This document shows positions 44,587 through 63,949 of a stretch of DNA of 64,000 bases, piece after piece (within the stretch, counting starts at the first letter, position 1; each line of letters begins with the position of its first letter). The notes below the pieces were generated by a model, which saw nothing but the letters and a program-made list of their open reading frames with translations, was not told where the DNA came from and did no database searches. The translations under genes were made by a program, and so were the position numbers. Source of the DNA: a virus; the IMG/VR virus record IMGVR_UViG_3300032315_000979, positions 44,688-108,687 of that record, one strand, 5' to 3'.

Positions 44587-44903
44587 TGCCAGATATTATT
44601 GTTGACCCTGAAGTTCTTGCAGCGCAGATGGGTGATAAGTCAGAAGAGTTTATTAAATGCTTGGGTATTGTCCAAGACATTATTGAGAATCCACAAGATT
44701 ATATTGGTATGCAAGCTATTAAGTATGCAAACATCTTGGCTGGGTATAGAACGCTTATGATTGTGAAATCACAAGCCTTTAAAAGAAGATCTACTATTAT
44801 GAGCGAACAAGATAAGTTTGTTAATGATATTTGGAAAACAATGTACGAAGCACTAACTGAAAACATCAATGCCTTAAAACTGGCAGCAAAAGGAGTAAAT
44901 TAA
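44586..44903 (+). CDS. Unknown helical protein
   Basis: A 105-residue protein predicted mostly helical (LGIVQDIIENPQDYIGMQAI, then YANILAGYRTLMIVKSQAF). It stands directly before the Cas4-like nuclease, with its stop adjacent to that gene's ATG. Similar short helical proteins occur next to exonuclease genes in actinophages, but I cannot name a function. Confidence 0.55.
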   Translation: MPDIIVDPEVLAAQMGDKSEEFIKCLGIVQDIIENPQDYIGMQAIKYANILAGYRTLMIVKSQAFKRRSTIMSEQDKFVNDIWKTMYEALTENINALKLAAKGVN

Positions 44904-58610: not shown

Positions 58611-58997
58611 ATGTTTAATATGGATGACTTTGAAAAAATGGGTGATACCAATAATGAAGTGCCAGATGGGATAATTGATGCGTCTGATTATTATAACGAT
58701 ATGGAAATCGTTACTAATATATTGGCTGGAATTGATTATGATGATATGACTTCAAGAATGCATGGAATGATGAATCTTATGAATTCAACATATGATGATG
58801 ATGGAGACATGAATTCAGAACGAGTGACTGGTGTGGTTATTGCTTTATCATTTCATTTTGTAAATATGATGAATAATCTAGAAAAAGAAAGTCGTGACGA
58901 GTATTTTGAATATGCTAAGAATGAAGTTCTTGAACAGATTAAAGATGATGTAGCAACATTGCCTTATTGGGACTTAGAGGAAACAGATGACGAATGA
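58611..58997 (+). CDS. Unknown acidic protein
   Basis: A 128-residue protein with an AAAGGAG site. It is rich in Asp, Met and Asn (SDYYNDMEIVTNILAGIDYD, RMHGMMNLMNSTYDDDGDMN) and ends in a helix (DEYFEYAKNEVLEQIKDDVA). No family recognised. It overlaps the second WhiB-like gene by 11 bases. Confidence 0.52.
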   Translation: MFNMDDFEKMGDTNNEVPDGIIDASDYYNDMEIVTNILAGIDYDDMTSRMHGMMNLMNSTYDDDGDMNSERVTGVVIALSFHFVNMMNNLEKESRDEYFEYAKNEVLEQIKDDVATLPYWDLEETDDE

Positions 58998-59274
58998 GCA
59001 TTGGAGTGAGAAAGCAAATTGTAGAACAATTAAAGGAATTGATTTCTTTGCCGAAGATATTAATGCAATACAAAGGGCTAAGAAAGTTTGTGAAAGATGT
59101 GCTGTTGCAGCAGAATGTTTGAATCAATCAATTAAAGCTGATGAAATATATGGCATTTGGGGTGGGCTTTCGCAAAGAGAAAGACGAAAGTATCATCGGT
59201 TATTTGAAAATAAAATGGAGATTAGTCAAGCGAAAGAGATTGTGGTAAAACATGGCAACAAAGTACTTAGATAG
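58987..59274 (+). CDS. WhiB-family iron-sulfur regulator
   Basis: A 95-residue protein with the canonical pattern: Cys12, then Cys35-x2-Cys38-x5-Cys44, and the family's turn YGIWGGLSQRERRK (residues 55-68), followed by a basic helix. Unlike the copy at 32810 it keeps the Trp of the GxWGG motif, so it should bind a 4Fe-4S cluster and the sigma factor normally. Its place at the end of the small-gene block suggests it may reprogram host transcription during a different phase from the first copy. Confidence 0.87.
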   Translation: MTNEHWSEKANCRTIKGIDFFAEDINAIQRAKKVCERCAVAAECLNQSIKADEIYGIWGGLSQRERRKYHRLFENKMEISQAKEIVVKHGNKVLR

Positions 59275-60873: not shown

Positions 60874-61529
60874 CTCAAGAATTTCTTGAAAGAACAGATA
60901 CAGCAGGAAATATTATATACACATCAAAAACAGGAGAAAAAATAAACATGGAACCAGTAGAAACAAAGAATAAGGATGTCGTTGCAACAATGACATTCCC
61001 AGCAGAACAGTTAATTGAAATGTTTAAAGACTATACAATGACTGAAGATCAGGTTGAGCAACTCATTCAAAACTATGATTTTGAAGATGTAATTGAATCA
61101 GGTCTGAGCAATCATGATTGGAATGATGAAGTTGAAAATGTCCTTAATTCTATTGATGTAGAAGATTATTTGGATATGGATACAATTGCAACCAATGTAA
61201 TTGAAAGCCTTGATTATAACGATATTGCTCGTGAAGTCAAAGATCATTTAGATCCAGTTGATGCTATGTCATTAGCTGAGGAATTGCTTACATCTTTTGA
61301 ATACTCATCACCTTGTCATGTTGGTAGCTTATTTATTAAGTCAGTAGAATCAATTATTGAAGGCTATATGAAGAAGCAAACAAATATTATTCCTGAAGTA
61401 GCAATTGCTGAGAATAATGATATCATTCTTCGTTCATTTAGTATTCTAGAAATTAAAGAGGTTCTAGATAGCCTTCAGTATACTGAATACAATAAGAATC
61501 GTGTCCTTGCAAGATTAATGGAAAAATAG
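60870..61529 (+). CDS. Unknown helical, acidic protein
   Basis: A 219-residue protein from ATG 60870, which overlaps the preceding stop (ATGA) and follows GAAAGG. A second ATG at 60948 after CAGGAG is a possible alternative start that would remove 26 residues. The sequence is a series of acidic helices (QLIEMFKDYTMTEDQVEQLI, DYLDMDTIATNVIESLDYND). It lies directly before the ATPase-metalloprotease gene and may work with it. No family recognised. Confidence 0.55.
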   Translation: MTQEFLERTDTAGNIIYTSKTGEKINMEPVETKNKDVVATMTFPAEQLIEMFKDYTMTEDQVEQLIQNYDFEDVIESGLSNHDWNDEVENVLNSIDVEDYLDMDTIATNVIESLDYNDIAREVKDHLDPVDAMSLAEELLTSFEYSSPCHVGSLFIKSVESIIEGYMKKQTNIIPEVAIAENNDIILRSFSILEIKEVLDSLQYTEYNKNRVLARLMEK

Positions 61530-61540
61530 AAAGGTTGAAA

Positions 61541-63172
61541 ATGTCAAAGTACATTAAAATTTCTAATCAATCGGAGAATGTTAGTCGGATAGCCCTAGAA
61601 AAACTAGGGCTATCTACTAAAAGAAACGATCCAGATACGATTGGTCAATTCGGTTCAGGTATTAAATATGCTCCGATTGCAGCTTTGCGTATGGGATTGG
61701 ATTGGATTTTTACTGGTCAAGACGAAAAGGGTCAGTATATCCTTAAATATAAAGTAGAGAAAGAAGATGGTATTGACTGTATCGTTTATGATTACGGTGA
61801 TTACAAGAAATCATCTTCGTTTACGGTTGATGCTGGTGTATTGAGTTGGGAAGATGAATTCCAGGTTTATAGAGAAGCAATTGCAAATGCTATGGATGAA
61901 GCTAAGACTTCAGGAACGACATGGAGTCGTGAAATAGTTGATGCAAAAGATGTTAAATCTAATCTGAATGAATTTTCTGTTTATATCACTGCGTCACCAA
62001 ATATGATGGAAATCTATAACGATCACGATAAGTATTTCCTTGAAAATCGTACACCGTTATTTGAAAATAAATCAGGTCATCACAAGGTTGCGTTTTATAA
62101 GCCTATTAACAAAAATGTTCATGTTTATCATAAGCAAGTAATGGTTTATGAAAATGAAGATTATACATCAATGTTTGATTACGAGATTCAGAATCTAAAA
62201 TTGAATGAGATGCGAACAGTAGCAGATGAATGGTCAATGAATTATAGAATTGCCCAGGCTGTATGTGAGTGTAATGATATTTCAATTATCAAGCAATTTA
62301 TTAAGTCAGCAAATACTGATAAGAATTACTTTGAATTTGAATTTAGTGGTTCAATGCATGATGTAGATCGTAGTTGGAAAGAGGCTTGGGTTGATCTTTA
62401 TGATGAAGATTGCATTATGGTTACACCTGAAGAATCTCTAAATCAAGCGTATGTTTCTTTTATTAAAGAAAAGGGTCTTGATTTCAAGACGATTGGCTCT
62501 AGCTTTTTCTTTTGGATTTTGAAAAAAGCTGGTGTTCAAACAGTTGAAGATATTGCGAGTGAAGCAATCAACTATGAAATTGATAGTGATATTCATAATT
62601 ATCCAAAGTTGATCAAAGCAATTGAAATTGCAGCAAGATTTGAACCAGGCTTATTGCAATTAGAAAAACCAATTGCTTGCTTTGTTCCTAAACAAAAAGA
62701 TCACTATTTGGGTGTGGTTATCAATCCAAATACAAAAGACAAACAGATTCTGATTGACAAAAATCATGCGCTTAACGGTGAGCTAAATGAATTGGTAGCG
62801 ACTGTTATTCATGAATATGATCATTATGAAACTGGCTATTCAGATGGTGATTTGATTGGCAGAAAGTTTAGGGATTTGGCTGATCGCAGAATTGGAAAAA
62901 TGATGTGCGAATTTTATCGCCCTGATTTGATTCAAGTTGGAAAAGATGGTATATATATCCCATTGGAAAGTATTTCTGAATTGGGTGGGATTCAATATAA
63001 CACTGAGTGGTCAAAAGCATTAGAATGCTATATTATGTCAATCGGTAAAAGAGCTTATAAAATCCATTCACATGGATTAGATACTGGAATTGGTTGCGCA
63101 ATTGCAATTGATAACGGCACACGCTTCTTTATTGAAATTACTGAACCATTTACTATTAGTATTATTCACTAA
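61541..63172 (+). CDS. GHKL-like ATPase fused to HExxH metalloprotease-like domain
   Basis: A 543-residue protein (ATG 61541 after AAAGG). The N-terminal domain carries two motifs of GHKL ATPases (Hsp90, MutL, histidine kinases): TIGQFGSGIKYAPIA (residues 33-47), like the glycine-rich G2 motif of Hsp90, and YREAIANAMDEA (110-121), like the N-box with its metal-binding Glu and Asn. The order is reversed relative to the normal N-box first, so the fold may be circularly permuted. Residues 130-380 have no recognised domain. TVIHEYDHYETG (about 421-432) gives a HExxH zinc-protease motif. Proteins with the same N-terminal opening (KISNxxE, STKRND, GxFGSGxKYA) occur in other phages, function unknown. 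An ATP-gated protease acting on host or phage proteins is an inference. Confidence 0.65.
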   Translation: MSKYIKISNQSENVSRIALEKLGLSTKRNDPDTIGQFGSGIKYAPIAALRMGLDWIFTGQDEKGQYILKYKVEKEDGIDCIVYDYGDYKKSSSFTVDAGVLSWEDEFQVYREAIANAMDEAKTSGTTWSREIVDAKDVKSNLNEFSVYITASPNMMEIYNDHDKYFLENRTPLFENKSGHHKVAFYKPINKNVHVYHKQVMVYENEDYTSMFDYEIQNLKLNEMRTVADEWSMNYRIAQAVCECNDISIIKQFIKSANTDKNYFEFEFSGSMHDVDRSWKEAWVDLYDEDCIMVTPEESLNQAYVSFIKEKGLDFKTIGSSFFFWILKKAGVQTVEDIASEAINYEIDSDIHNYPKLIKAIEIAARFEPGLLQLEKPIACFVPKQKDHYLGVVINPNTKDKQILIDKNHALNGELNELVATVIHEYDHYETGYSDGDLIGRKFRDLADRRIGKMMCEFYRPDLIQVGKDGIYIPLESISELGGIQYNTEWSKALECYIMSIGKRAYKIHSHGLDTGIGCAIAIDNGTRFFIEITEPFTISIIH

Positions 63173-63180
63173 GGAGAATT

Positions 63181-63519
63181 ATGCCAAAGTACGGAAATTA
63201 TTTTGTTGTTGAGTTTAGGTTTCCAATCCAAGTTGATACAGTAAATACAATTCAAGAAGCTTTGAGTATTGCTGGACAAATATGTGAGAATCAACATGGG
63301 TTTAAACCTGATAATTGGTATGCAAGAATATTTGAATATCAAACTGGAACTGATGAAGTAGGACATGTTAAAGAATATTTTTACAATCCTCATTCAGCAA
63401 CACATCGTGAAATAACCAAGAATATACAATATTTCAATGAGATGGTTCATAAAGGTTTATCTCCAGATCTTAAAAAGAATAATAAGAAAATTATTAAAAC
63501 ACTTCTGGAAGAGAACTAA
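63181..63519 (+). CDS. Unknown protein
   Basis: A 112-residue protein with an AAGGAG site right after the ATPase-protease gene. It has an N-terminal strand-helix unit (YGNYFVVEFRFPIQVDTVNT, IQEALSIAGQICENQHG) and a basic helical C-terminus (KNNKKIIKTLLEEN). Could be a partner of the upstream protein because of the close spacing, but nothing in the sequence shows this. Confidence 0.52.
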   Translation: MPKYGNYFVVEFRFPIQVDTVNTIQEALSIAGQICENQHGFKPDNWYARIFEYQTGTDEVGHVKEYFYNPHSATHREITKNIQYFNEMVHKGLSPDLKKNNKKIIKTLLEEN

Positions 63520-63520
63520 C

Positions 63521-63949
63521 ATGGCAAATAGGAAAGTAATTTGTGCTGGATGTGGTCAAATATATCAAGCAGAAAAAACTCATTTTTATCGCAACAAAAG
63601 ATGTTGTGGTTTAGATGATTGTATTACGGTTATTGACACAAAAATAAAGCACAGAAATTATTTGAAACAGCGTAGGAAATTTGCTAATGGAACACATCGG
63701 AGAGGAGTTCGTTTTGACCTTAAGAGTATTGTTCTTGAAAGAGATGAGAATTCTTGCAAGACTTGTTCTGCAAAATCAGATTATCTAACTGTTCATCACA
63801 TAGTTCCAGTTTCAGATGGCGGTGGAGATGAGCTAACTAATCTGATTACTTTATGTGCTAATTGTCATGTAAAAGTTCACCAAGAAGGATCAGAAAATTT
63901 TGTCAAATTGTTTACAGATTACACTAAAGGAGTTTTGATCAATGTCTAA
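63521..63949 (+). CDS. HNH endonuclease with N-terminal zinc finger
   Basis: A 142-residue protein from ATG 63521. Cys residues at ICAGCGQIYQA and RCCGLDDC form an N-terminal zinc finger; a second pair, CKTCSAKSDYL, opens the HNH domain, followed by VHHIVPVSDGGGDELTNLIT and LCANCHVKVHQ, the classic His-His, Asn and His with flanking Cys-x2-Cys. The fold fits restriction-like or homing nucleases. Being the second HNH gene in the window, it may be mobile or function in DNA degradation. Confidence 0.82.
   Translation: MANRKVICAGCGQIYQAEKTHFYRNKRCCGLDDCITVIDTKIKHRNYLKQRRKFANGTHRRGVRFDLKSIVLERDENSCKTCSAKSDYLTVHHIVPVSDGGGDELTNLITLCANCHVKVHQEGSENFVKLFTDYTKGVLINV

Follow-up and report, generated by a model that had tools for sequence, protein, structure and literature searches.

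The virus gene analysed here encodes, as we hold with high confidence, a GHKL-S5 protein in which the blocks of the GHKL domain stand in a rearranged order and which also carries a zincin fold, and we propose that the reordering, from A-B-C in the canonical arrangement to B-A-C, probably took place once, in an ancestor shared by these phages, and retained the structural elements and most of the residues at catalytic positions. GHKL ATPases (gyrase, Hsp90, histidine kinases and MutL) have been heavily studied and are recognised by their ordered motifs. The gene lies in what is called the window, the whole stretch of 64,000 nt that was analysed (positions 44,688 to 108,687 of the IMG/VR record IMGVR_UViG_3300032315_000979), where the open reading frame at 61541-63172 on the plus strand was confirmed to start at the ATG at 61541 and to encode 543 aa. 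The original prediction, made from the same DNA, had the motif positions right, with GQFGSG beginning at residue 35, REAIANAMDE at 111 and HEYDH at 424 (Table 1). No N-box is found upstream of the G2 motif, the G1 strand being the very start of the protein; an alternative upstream start that would bring in an N-box was rejected, as only 15 open codons, free of an N-box, are available there. The gene is under purifying selection, with dN/dS of 0.12-0.19 against five relatives.

Table 1. Parts of the rearranged GHKL-zincin gene and its conserved neighbours, in window positions
Feature	Positions	Strand	Remarks
Whole gene	61541..63172	+	permuted GHKL - S5 - alpha/beta - zincin - C-terminal beta region; AlphaFold2 pLDDT 89.7
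Shine-Dalgarno-like AGAAAGG	61528..61534	+	6 nt 5' of ATG 61541
Block B, residues 1-86 (G1 strand and loop, lid, G2 loop, helix, strands)	61541..61798	+	corresponds to canonical residues 45-123
G1 region, residues 3-14	61547..61582	+	Asn (N9) replaces the usual G1 Asp in 49/52 relatives
Lid and G2 motif GLSTKRNDPDTIGQFGSGIKYA, residues 23-44	61607..61672	+	K27, G35, G38, G40 and A44 invariant (n=52)
Block A, residues 88-140 (strand, N-box helix, strand)	61802..61960	+	moved from the N-terminus; corresponds to canonical residues 6-35
N-box REAIANAMDE, residues 111-120	61871..61900	+	E112, N116 and D119 invariant
Strand 144-150, start of block C	61970..61990	+	counterpart of the canonical GT strand
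S5/Hsp90-middle-like domain, residues 165-262	62033..62326	+	Foldseek matches: GRP94, Hsp90 middle domain
LNEMR, residues 221-225	62201..62215	+	R225 aligned to invariant R219 of the canonical family
Alpha/beta subdomain, residues 278-350	62372..62590	+	mostly missing from shorter relatives, e.g. YuA gp29
Zincin-like domain, residues 379-458	62675..62914	+	Foldseek: M. jannaschii selecase, prob 0.91
HEYDH, residues 424-428	62810..62824	+	alignment conservation and homologous canonical site
C-terminal beta region, residues 470-542	62948..63166	+	only in the window clade
Conserved downstream neighbour, 112 aa	63181..63519	+	in 20/21 window-clade loci
Conserved upstream neighbour, 131 aa	60478..60873	+	in 20/21 window-clade loci

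The rearrangement becomes apparent when the phage family is compared with a sister family in which the same domains are unshuffled. Alignment of the two family profiles yields one colinear match of 365 columns, which begins at G1, extends through the zincin (E 2.1e-32) and was reproduced with another tool; this match omits exactly the N-box segment, left as an insertion, and a second alignment places this N-box block against the canonical N-terminus (E 1.5e-6, prob 90). The canonical order is strand, N-box helix and strand (block A), then G1 strand, lid, G2, helix and strands (block B), then the GT strand followed by S5 (block C), whereas the phage order is B-A-C. Each part is also recognised on its own: hhalign against the canonical family gives E 4.5e-9 for block A (score 51.9, with at most 20.1 in 60 column shuffles), E 2.1e-13 for block B, E 4.5e-12 for residues 141-260 and E 1.4e-10 for residues 375-460 against the canonical zincin, and the scores of blocks A, B, C and the zincin taken alone (52, 84, 79 and 64) compare with shuffled maxima of 20, 23, 20 and 14. 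A first shuffle control that included gap columns produced one outlier of 132.6; with match columns only, the maximum was 22.6. The canonical HMM matches residues 2-71 of the window protein with its positions 46-114 (E 2.6e-5). Motif order tracks family membership without exception, the N-box coming first in 77/77 canonical proteins and G2 first in 93/93 permuted ones, a count based on 175 proteins classed by profile score, of which five were unscored because of truncation or a variant motif. PHROG 6077, to which no function is assigned in PHROG, aligns colinearly to the canonical protein, starting with the N-box (11-257 to 13-254), and its best stretch in the window protein (residues 3-79, E 4e-12) begins at profile position 44. 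In a tree of the homologous blocks, a single branch with a UFBoot of 100 parts 51 permuted from 13 canonical proteins, which suggests that the rearrangement happened only once, provided that neither of the two groups contains the root.

The profile homology, together with the invariance of E112, N116 and D119 in 52 proteins, upholds the earlier proposal that GQFGSG and REAIANAMDE are true equivalents of the GHKL G2 and N-box motifs. The same proposal had explained their reversed order by circular permutation or a new arrangement; the rearrangement is real, but it is blocks A and B that have changed places, and the domain as a whole is not circularly permuted. The swap amounts to circularly permuting the first ~125 residues. 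An equation of T95 with Hsp90 T184 under a simple circular permutation was also considered and was rejected, since the relocated block includes strand 89-95 and is followed by the GT strand, 144-150. We infer a route in which the first two blocks were duplicated and the outer copies lost, which would yield B-A-C; tandem GHKL-S5 units do exist in this GHKL-zincin lineage (Alkaliphilus, Aneurinibacillus). In the open-access literature that was searched, no paper was found to describe GHKL domains that are permuted, and such a domain is mentioned neither in the 2008 MORC paper nor in the jumbo-phage review or the 2025 GHKL review.

Relatives of the window protein are encoded in 67 phage records, including YuA gp29, under annotations that range from hypothetical protein to HATPase and metallopeptidase, and in 232 candidate stretches of IMG/VR. 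On plasmids, no direct relative of the window protein was found. Residues 3-430 match PHROG 8203 (E 3e-22), whose function is unassigned in PHROG, in agreement with the earlier remark that similar N-termini occur without a function in other phages. Across 52 aligned proteins, K27, G35, G38, G40, A44, T95, G99, W103, R111, E112, N116 and D119 are invariant; the three glycines belong to G2 and are followed by K42 in 51/52, and the distances within the N-box (E, +4 N, +3 D) are fixed in 52/52 and equal those in Hsp90 (RELISNASD in the HtpG profile). Queried with the single protein, Pfam, NCBIfam and PADLOC returned chance-level matches only (Cas1, SRP1_TIP1, TmtA, PD-Lambda-5), and HATPase was absent from the single-sequence Pfam search. 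A PDB search with the first profile matched MORC2 as the sole protein (E 0.003, profile positions 13-81), which we take as supporting only; a profile built from the larger alignment A2 gave no significant PDB match (MORC2 E 0.23). Comparison with the HtpG profile is weak for the phage family, at E 0.002-0.003 and in two separate pieces of crossed order, and strong for the canonical family (E 4e-12).

AlphaFold2 modelled the whole protein with a pLDDT of 89.7, the lid being less certain, and residues 1-170 alone as a confident single-domain model (pLDDT 90.8, pTM 0.88), and the predicted secondary structure elements follow the order expected for the rearranged domain. The anticipated likeness to Hsp90 was recovered by comparison of the whole model, for which Foldseek returned GRP94 with AMP-PNP at E 5.9e-6 and Hsc82 at 1.6e-5; it also returned human Hsp90 middle/C-terminal constructs and the selecase of M. 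jannaschii, a minigluzincin (prob 0.91, E 0.16). Residues 375-460, at the place where Hsp90 has its C-terminal dimerisation domain, show a zincin-like arrangement of elements. For residues 1-170 the GHKL matches were weak (topo VI-B, E 0.18, prob 0.60, TM 0.40), and because the search respects chain order, isolated-domain Foldseek is ill suited to judging a domain that has been permuted. Most probably, the reordered domain would still form a single nucleotide pocket.

The residues of this presumed pocket leave the choice of nucleotide in doubt. The Gly pattern of the G1 motif DxGxG is kept in part only and the adenine-binding Asp is missing, being Asn in 49/52 permuted proteins and otherwise Thr (N9 in the window protein, 61565-61567). 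At the same position the canonical set (n=64) has Asp in 27 proteins, Asn in 16, Ser in 13 and Thr in 6; many canonical viral proteins have Asn, Ser or Thr there, and the cellular canonical ones read here have Asp. In Hsp90, the D79N change abolishes ATP binding. Nucleotide use by the permuted family is therefore uncertain, given the loss of the G1 Asp, and it is possible that the change reflects an altered nucleotide specificity. R225 is present in 51/51 permuted proteins and is aligned to the canonical S5 Arg that is invariant in 64/64; it is a candidate for a phosphate-sensing Arg, at what is presumably the site of the Hsp90 catalytic Arg. A more elaborate proposal, to which we would give only a small chance, is that the reordered one-pocket GHKL fold binds, owing to the G1 Asp-to-Asn change of nearly all permuted proteins, a nucleotide other than ATP (e.g. 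GTP or a phage-modified one) and thereby gates a metalloprotease that would remove proteins from DNA in the course of infection.

The reading of the C-terminus as zincin-like, which had rested on HEYDH, is sustained by the position of this motif in a predicted helix (415-431) and by the profile match of residues 375-460 to the canonical zincin. HExxH appears by chance in 2.7% of shuffles of the window protein, so that the motif alone is weak and it is conservation and homology that carry the claim. In alignment A2, H424 is found in 22/52 rows, which make up the window clade, and E425 in 40/52; Glu replaces the first His (EExxH) in 20/52 permuted proteins, and HExxH stands at the homologous place in the canonical family, with H in 36/42 ungapped rows. 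Two permuted subgroups (L091, L093 and L094; L067, L071, L077, L079, L081 and L088) have neither HExxH nor EExxH, and in these the zincin part has apparently decayed or diverged independently. HExxH is probably ancestral, since it is the majority state of the canonical family and is kept in the window clade, and this clade is the permuted branch most likely to have retained protease activity. Outside the window clade, most permuted relatives show EExxH at this place or lack such a motif, so that a classical protease is dispensable for the family. No third zinc ligand was recognised in the window protein, in which D435 and D448 are candidates and the common canonical Glu is Arg444.

The unshuffled sister family came to light when 299 genomes were searched with the family alignment; this retrieved L159, a protein of 471 aa that has the same domains and the N-box first. 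This canonical family, REARRANGEMENT, has the layout GHKL, S5, alpha/beta and HExxH zincin, like the phage protein; its relatives are found on plasmids of Priestia, Croceicoccus, Salinibacter, Euzebya and haloarchaea and also in phages and in prophage-like contigs, and its members include Croceicoccus WP_047824690.1, Salinibacter WP_231847039.1, Euzebya WP_114594682.1 and PHROG 6077. The two families have in common the GHKL, S5, alpha/beta and zincin parts (profile E about 1e-32), the invariant S5 Arg and, mostly, HExxH followed by a conserved Asp. The canonical family differs in that its N-box block is N-terminal, its cellular members read here retain the G1 Asp and the C-terminal beta region of the window-clade type is missing. 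The canonical protein has an HATPase_c_3 match just below the cut-off, a weak SprT-like match and a weak gyrase B match from N-box to G1; used as a query against 247 genomes (the phylum of a Bacteroidetes MAG), it found no relative. The combination of GHKL and zincin, from which a new type of host take-over or anti-defence factor had been surmised, also occurs in cellular relatives and is not peculiar to this phage. Plasmid-borne tandem proteins of Alkaliphilus (L165:2946-6260, 1104 aa) and Aneurinibacillus (L166:1387-4263, 958 aa) have about three GHKL-S5 units and one terminal HExxH zincin, a multi-clamp version of the same design. One canonical GHKL-zincin gene (L158:331-2239) is apparently split by a transposase-like ORF, its two parts being separate ORFs.

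The operon of the window gene, with WhiB and uncharacterised proteins, offers no functional clue. The WhiB gene (window 58987-59274, Pfam E 3.5e-19) lies upstream, is present in 18/21 window-clade loci and points to an actinobacterial host. The 112-aa and 131-aa neighbours are conserved as widely as any neighbour and have no Pfam or PHROG match at E 0.01. An HNH endonuclease ORF (window 63437-63949) has a listed start that overlaps the preceding gene, and its true start is probably a later ATG (MANRKVICAGCG). Near other permuted members are genes for Erf-/RecT-like annealing proteins, exonuclease VIII, primase and DnaB helicase, each type accounting for one or two of 98 scanned neighbours, a tendency and not a rule; the Dyella copy lies near a RecE-like exonuclease. 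These replication and recombination neighbours make a role on DNA at least as favoured as one in anti-defence. On the Salinibacter plasmid pSR56, the type I restriction genes hsdS and hsdR flank the canonical gene (L162:4962-6404), and hsdR is followed by a gene for an SprT-family metalloprotease, an arrangement that suggests a restriction-linked role for the canonical protein of this plasmid. On a Natrinema plasmid (L163:4983-6377) the canonical gene lies two genes upstream of a Piwi-domain gene, which is followed by a phospholipase D family gene.

Among known proteins, the Yuavirus gp29/PHROG 8203 members (Pseudomonas phages YuA and M6, Bordetella FP1, Synechococcus Ssp-JY42), annotated as hypothetical protein, HATPase or metallopeptidase, have the same rearranged block order and motifs, and differ in their length of about 390 aa, in EExxH and in lacking the alpha/beta subdomain and the C-terminal beta region. 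Hsp90/HtpG resembles the phage protein in the G2 motif IGQFGxG, in an REL-type N-box and in a middle-domain-like second domain (the Foldseek match at E 5.9e-6), whereas its motif order is different, the phage protein is without the G1 Asp and a zincin replaces the Hsp90 dimerisation domain. The plan of a GHKL-S5 ATPase with a C-terminal effector is shared with MORC/paraMORC and with VcSduA (Shedu type I-D), in which the order is canonical and, for VcSduA, the effector is a nuclease. The zincin fold with HExxH on the active-site helix is that of minigluzincins and of SprT/Wss1/Spartan, SprT being a weak Pfam match in relatives (E 0.006-0.009); unlike these, the phage zincin is fused to a GHKL ATPase and its third ligand is not recognisable. 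From T4 rIIA, a GHKL protein of canonical order, the window protein differs in its block order, and its fold match to one RIIA is weak (E 0.006).

We propose a mechanism in which a rearranged GHKL clamp gates a C-terminal metalloprotease of the minigluzincin/SprT-like kind, and taken as a whole we consider it a reading with about an even chance of being correct. Nucleotide binding would close an Hsp90/MutL-like dimeric clamp, dimerisation and ATP use being presumed, and R225 in the S5 domain would sense the nucleotide. The closed clamp would hold a protein or protein-DNA substrate, the S5 Arg and the alpha/beta part would relay closure to the C-terminal zincin, and the latter, if it binds zinc and is proteolytic, would cut the captured protein. 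Protease activity is plausible, and the protease step could fall either way. Precedents for the two halves exist: a change of E27 in VcSduA, a GHKL ATPase with a C-terminal nuclease, causes loss of anti-phage activity (PMC12137116), and the minigluzincin-like Wss1 removes chromatin-bound proteins (PMC4559962). By analogy with Wss1/Spartan and from the gene context of the relatives, our guess is that the target class would be DNA-bound proteins early in infection.

It is possible, though we rather doubt it, that the rearranged GHKL clamp carries the zincin fold as a binding module and serves as a chaperone or DNA clamp in replication or recombination. The EExxH of 20/52 permuted relatives, the motif-less subgroups, the change of the canonical Glu to Arg444 and the annealing proteins, exonuclease, primase and helicase among the neighbours of permuted relatives would all fit such a protein; however, HExxH is intact in the 22/52 rows of the window clade and under purifying selection there, and the canonical family mostly retains it where the domain is present. 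We consider unlikely an anti-defence or host take-over factor, that is, an rIIA-like GHKL protein or a protease directed against a host defence protein. The phage GHKL protein rIIA is regarded as counter-defence (PMC7824862), the RIIA fold match, weak as it is, points the same way, and canonical relatives lie in the Salinibacter type I restriction operon and near the Natrinema Piwi gene, but no anti-defence gene was recognised beside the window gene or beside those of its clade, PADLOC gave nothing significant, and among the neighbours that could be recognised beside other permuted members, genes for replication, recombination and HNH proteins predominate. As for the view that nothing was rearranged, the N-box-like helix being coincidental and the domain not a working GHKL fold, the weak isolated-domain Foldseek matches and the missing HATPase hit could be cited in its favour; yet W103, R111, E112, N116 and D119 are invariant, block A scores well above shuffles against the canonical N-terminus and the order switches one-to-one across 170 proteins, so that this view is already contradicted by the profile data and we give it hardly any credence.

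The natural B-A-C reordering and the unshuffled sister family with the same domains offer a well-matched pair in which to study how a fold can withstand being rearranged. The reordering may also explain why standard profile libraries miss these phage proteins, for which Pfam and NCBIfam give nothing significant. If the GHKL-zincin protein of the proposed mechanism is a nucleotide-gated protease, it would represent a type of ATPase-gated proteolysis unrelated to the AAA+ proteases, one that would span phages, bacteria and archaea and would parallel GHKL-nuclease defence proteins such as VcSduA.
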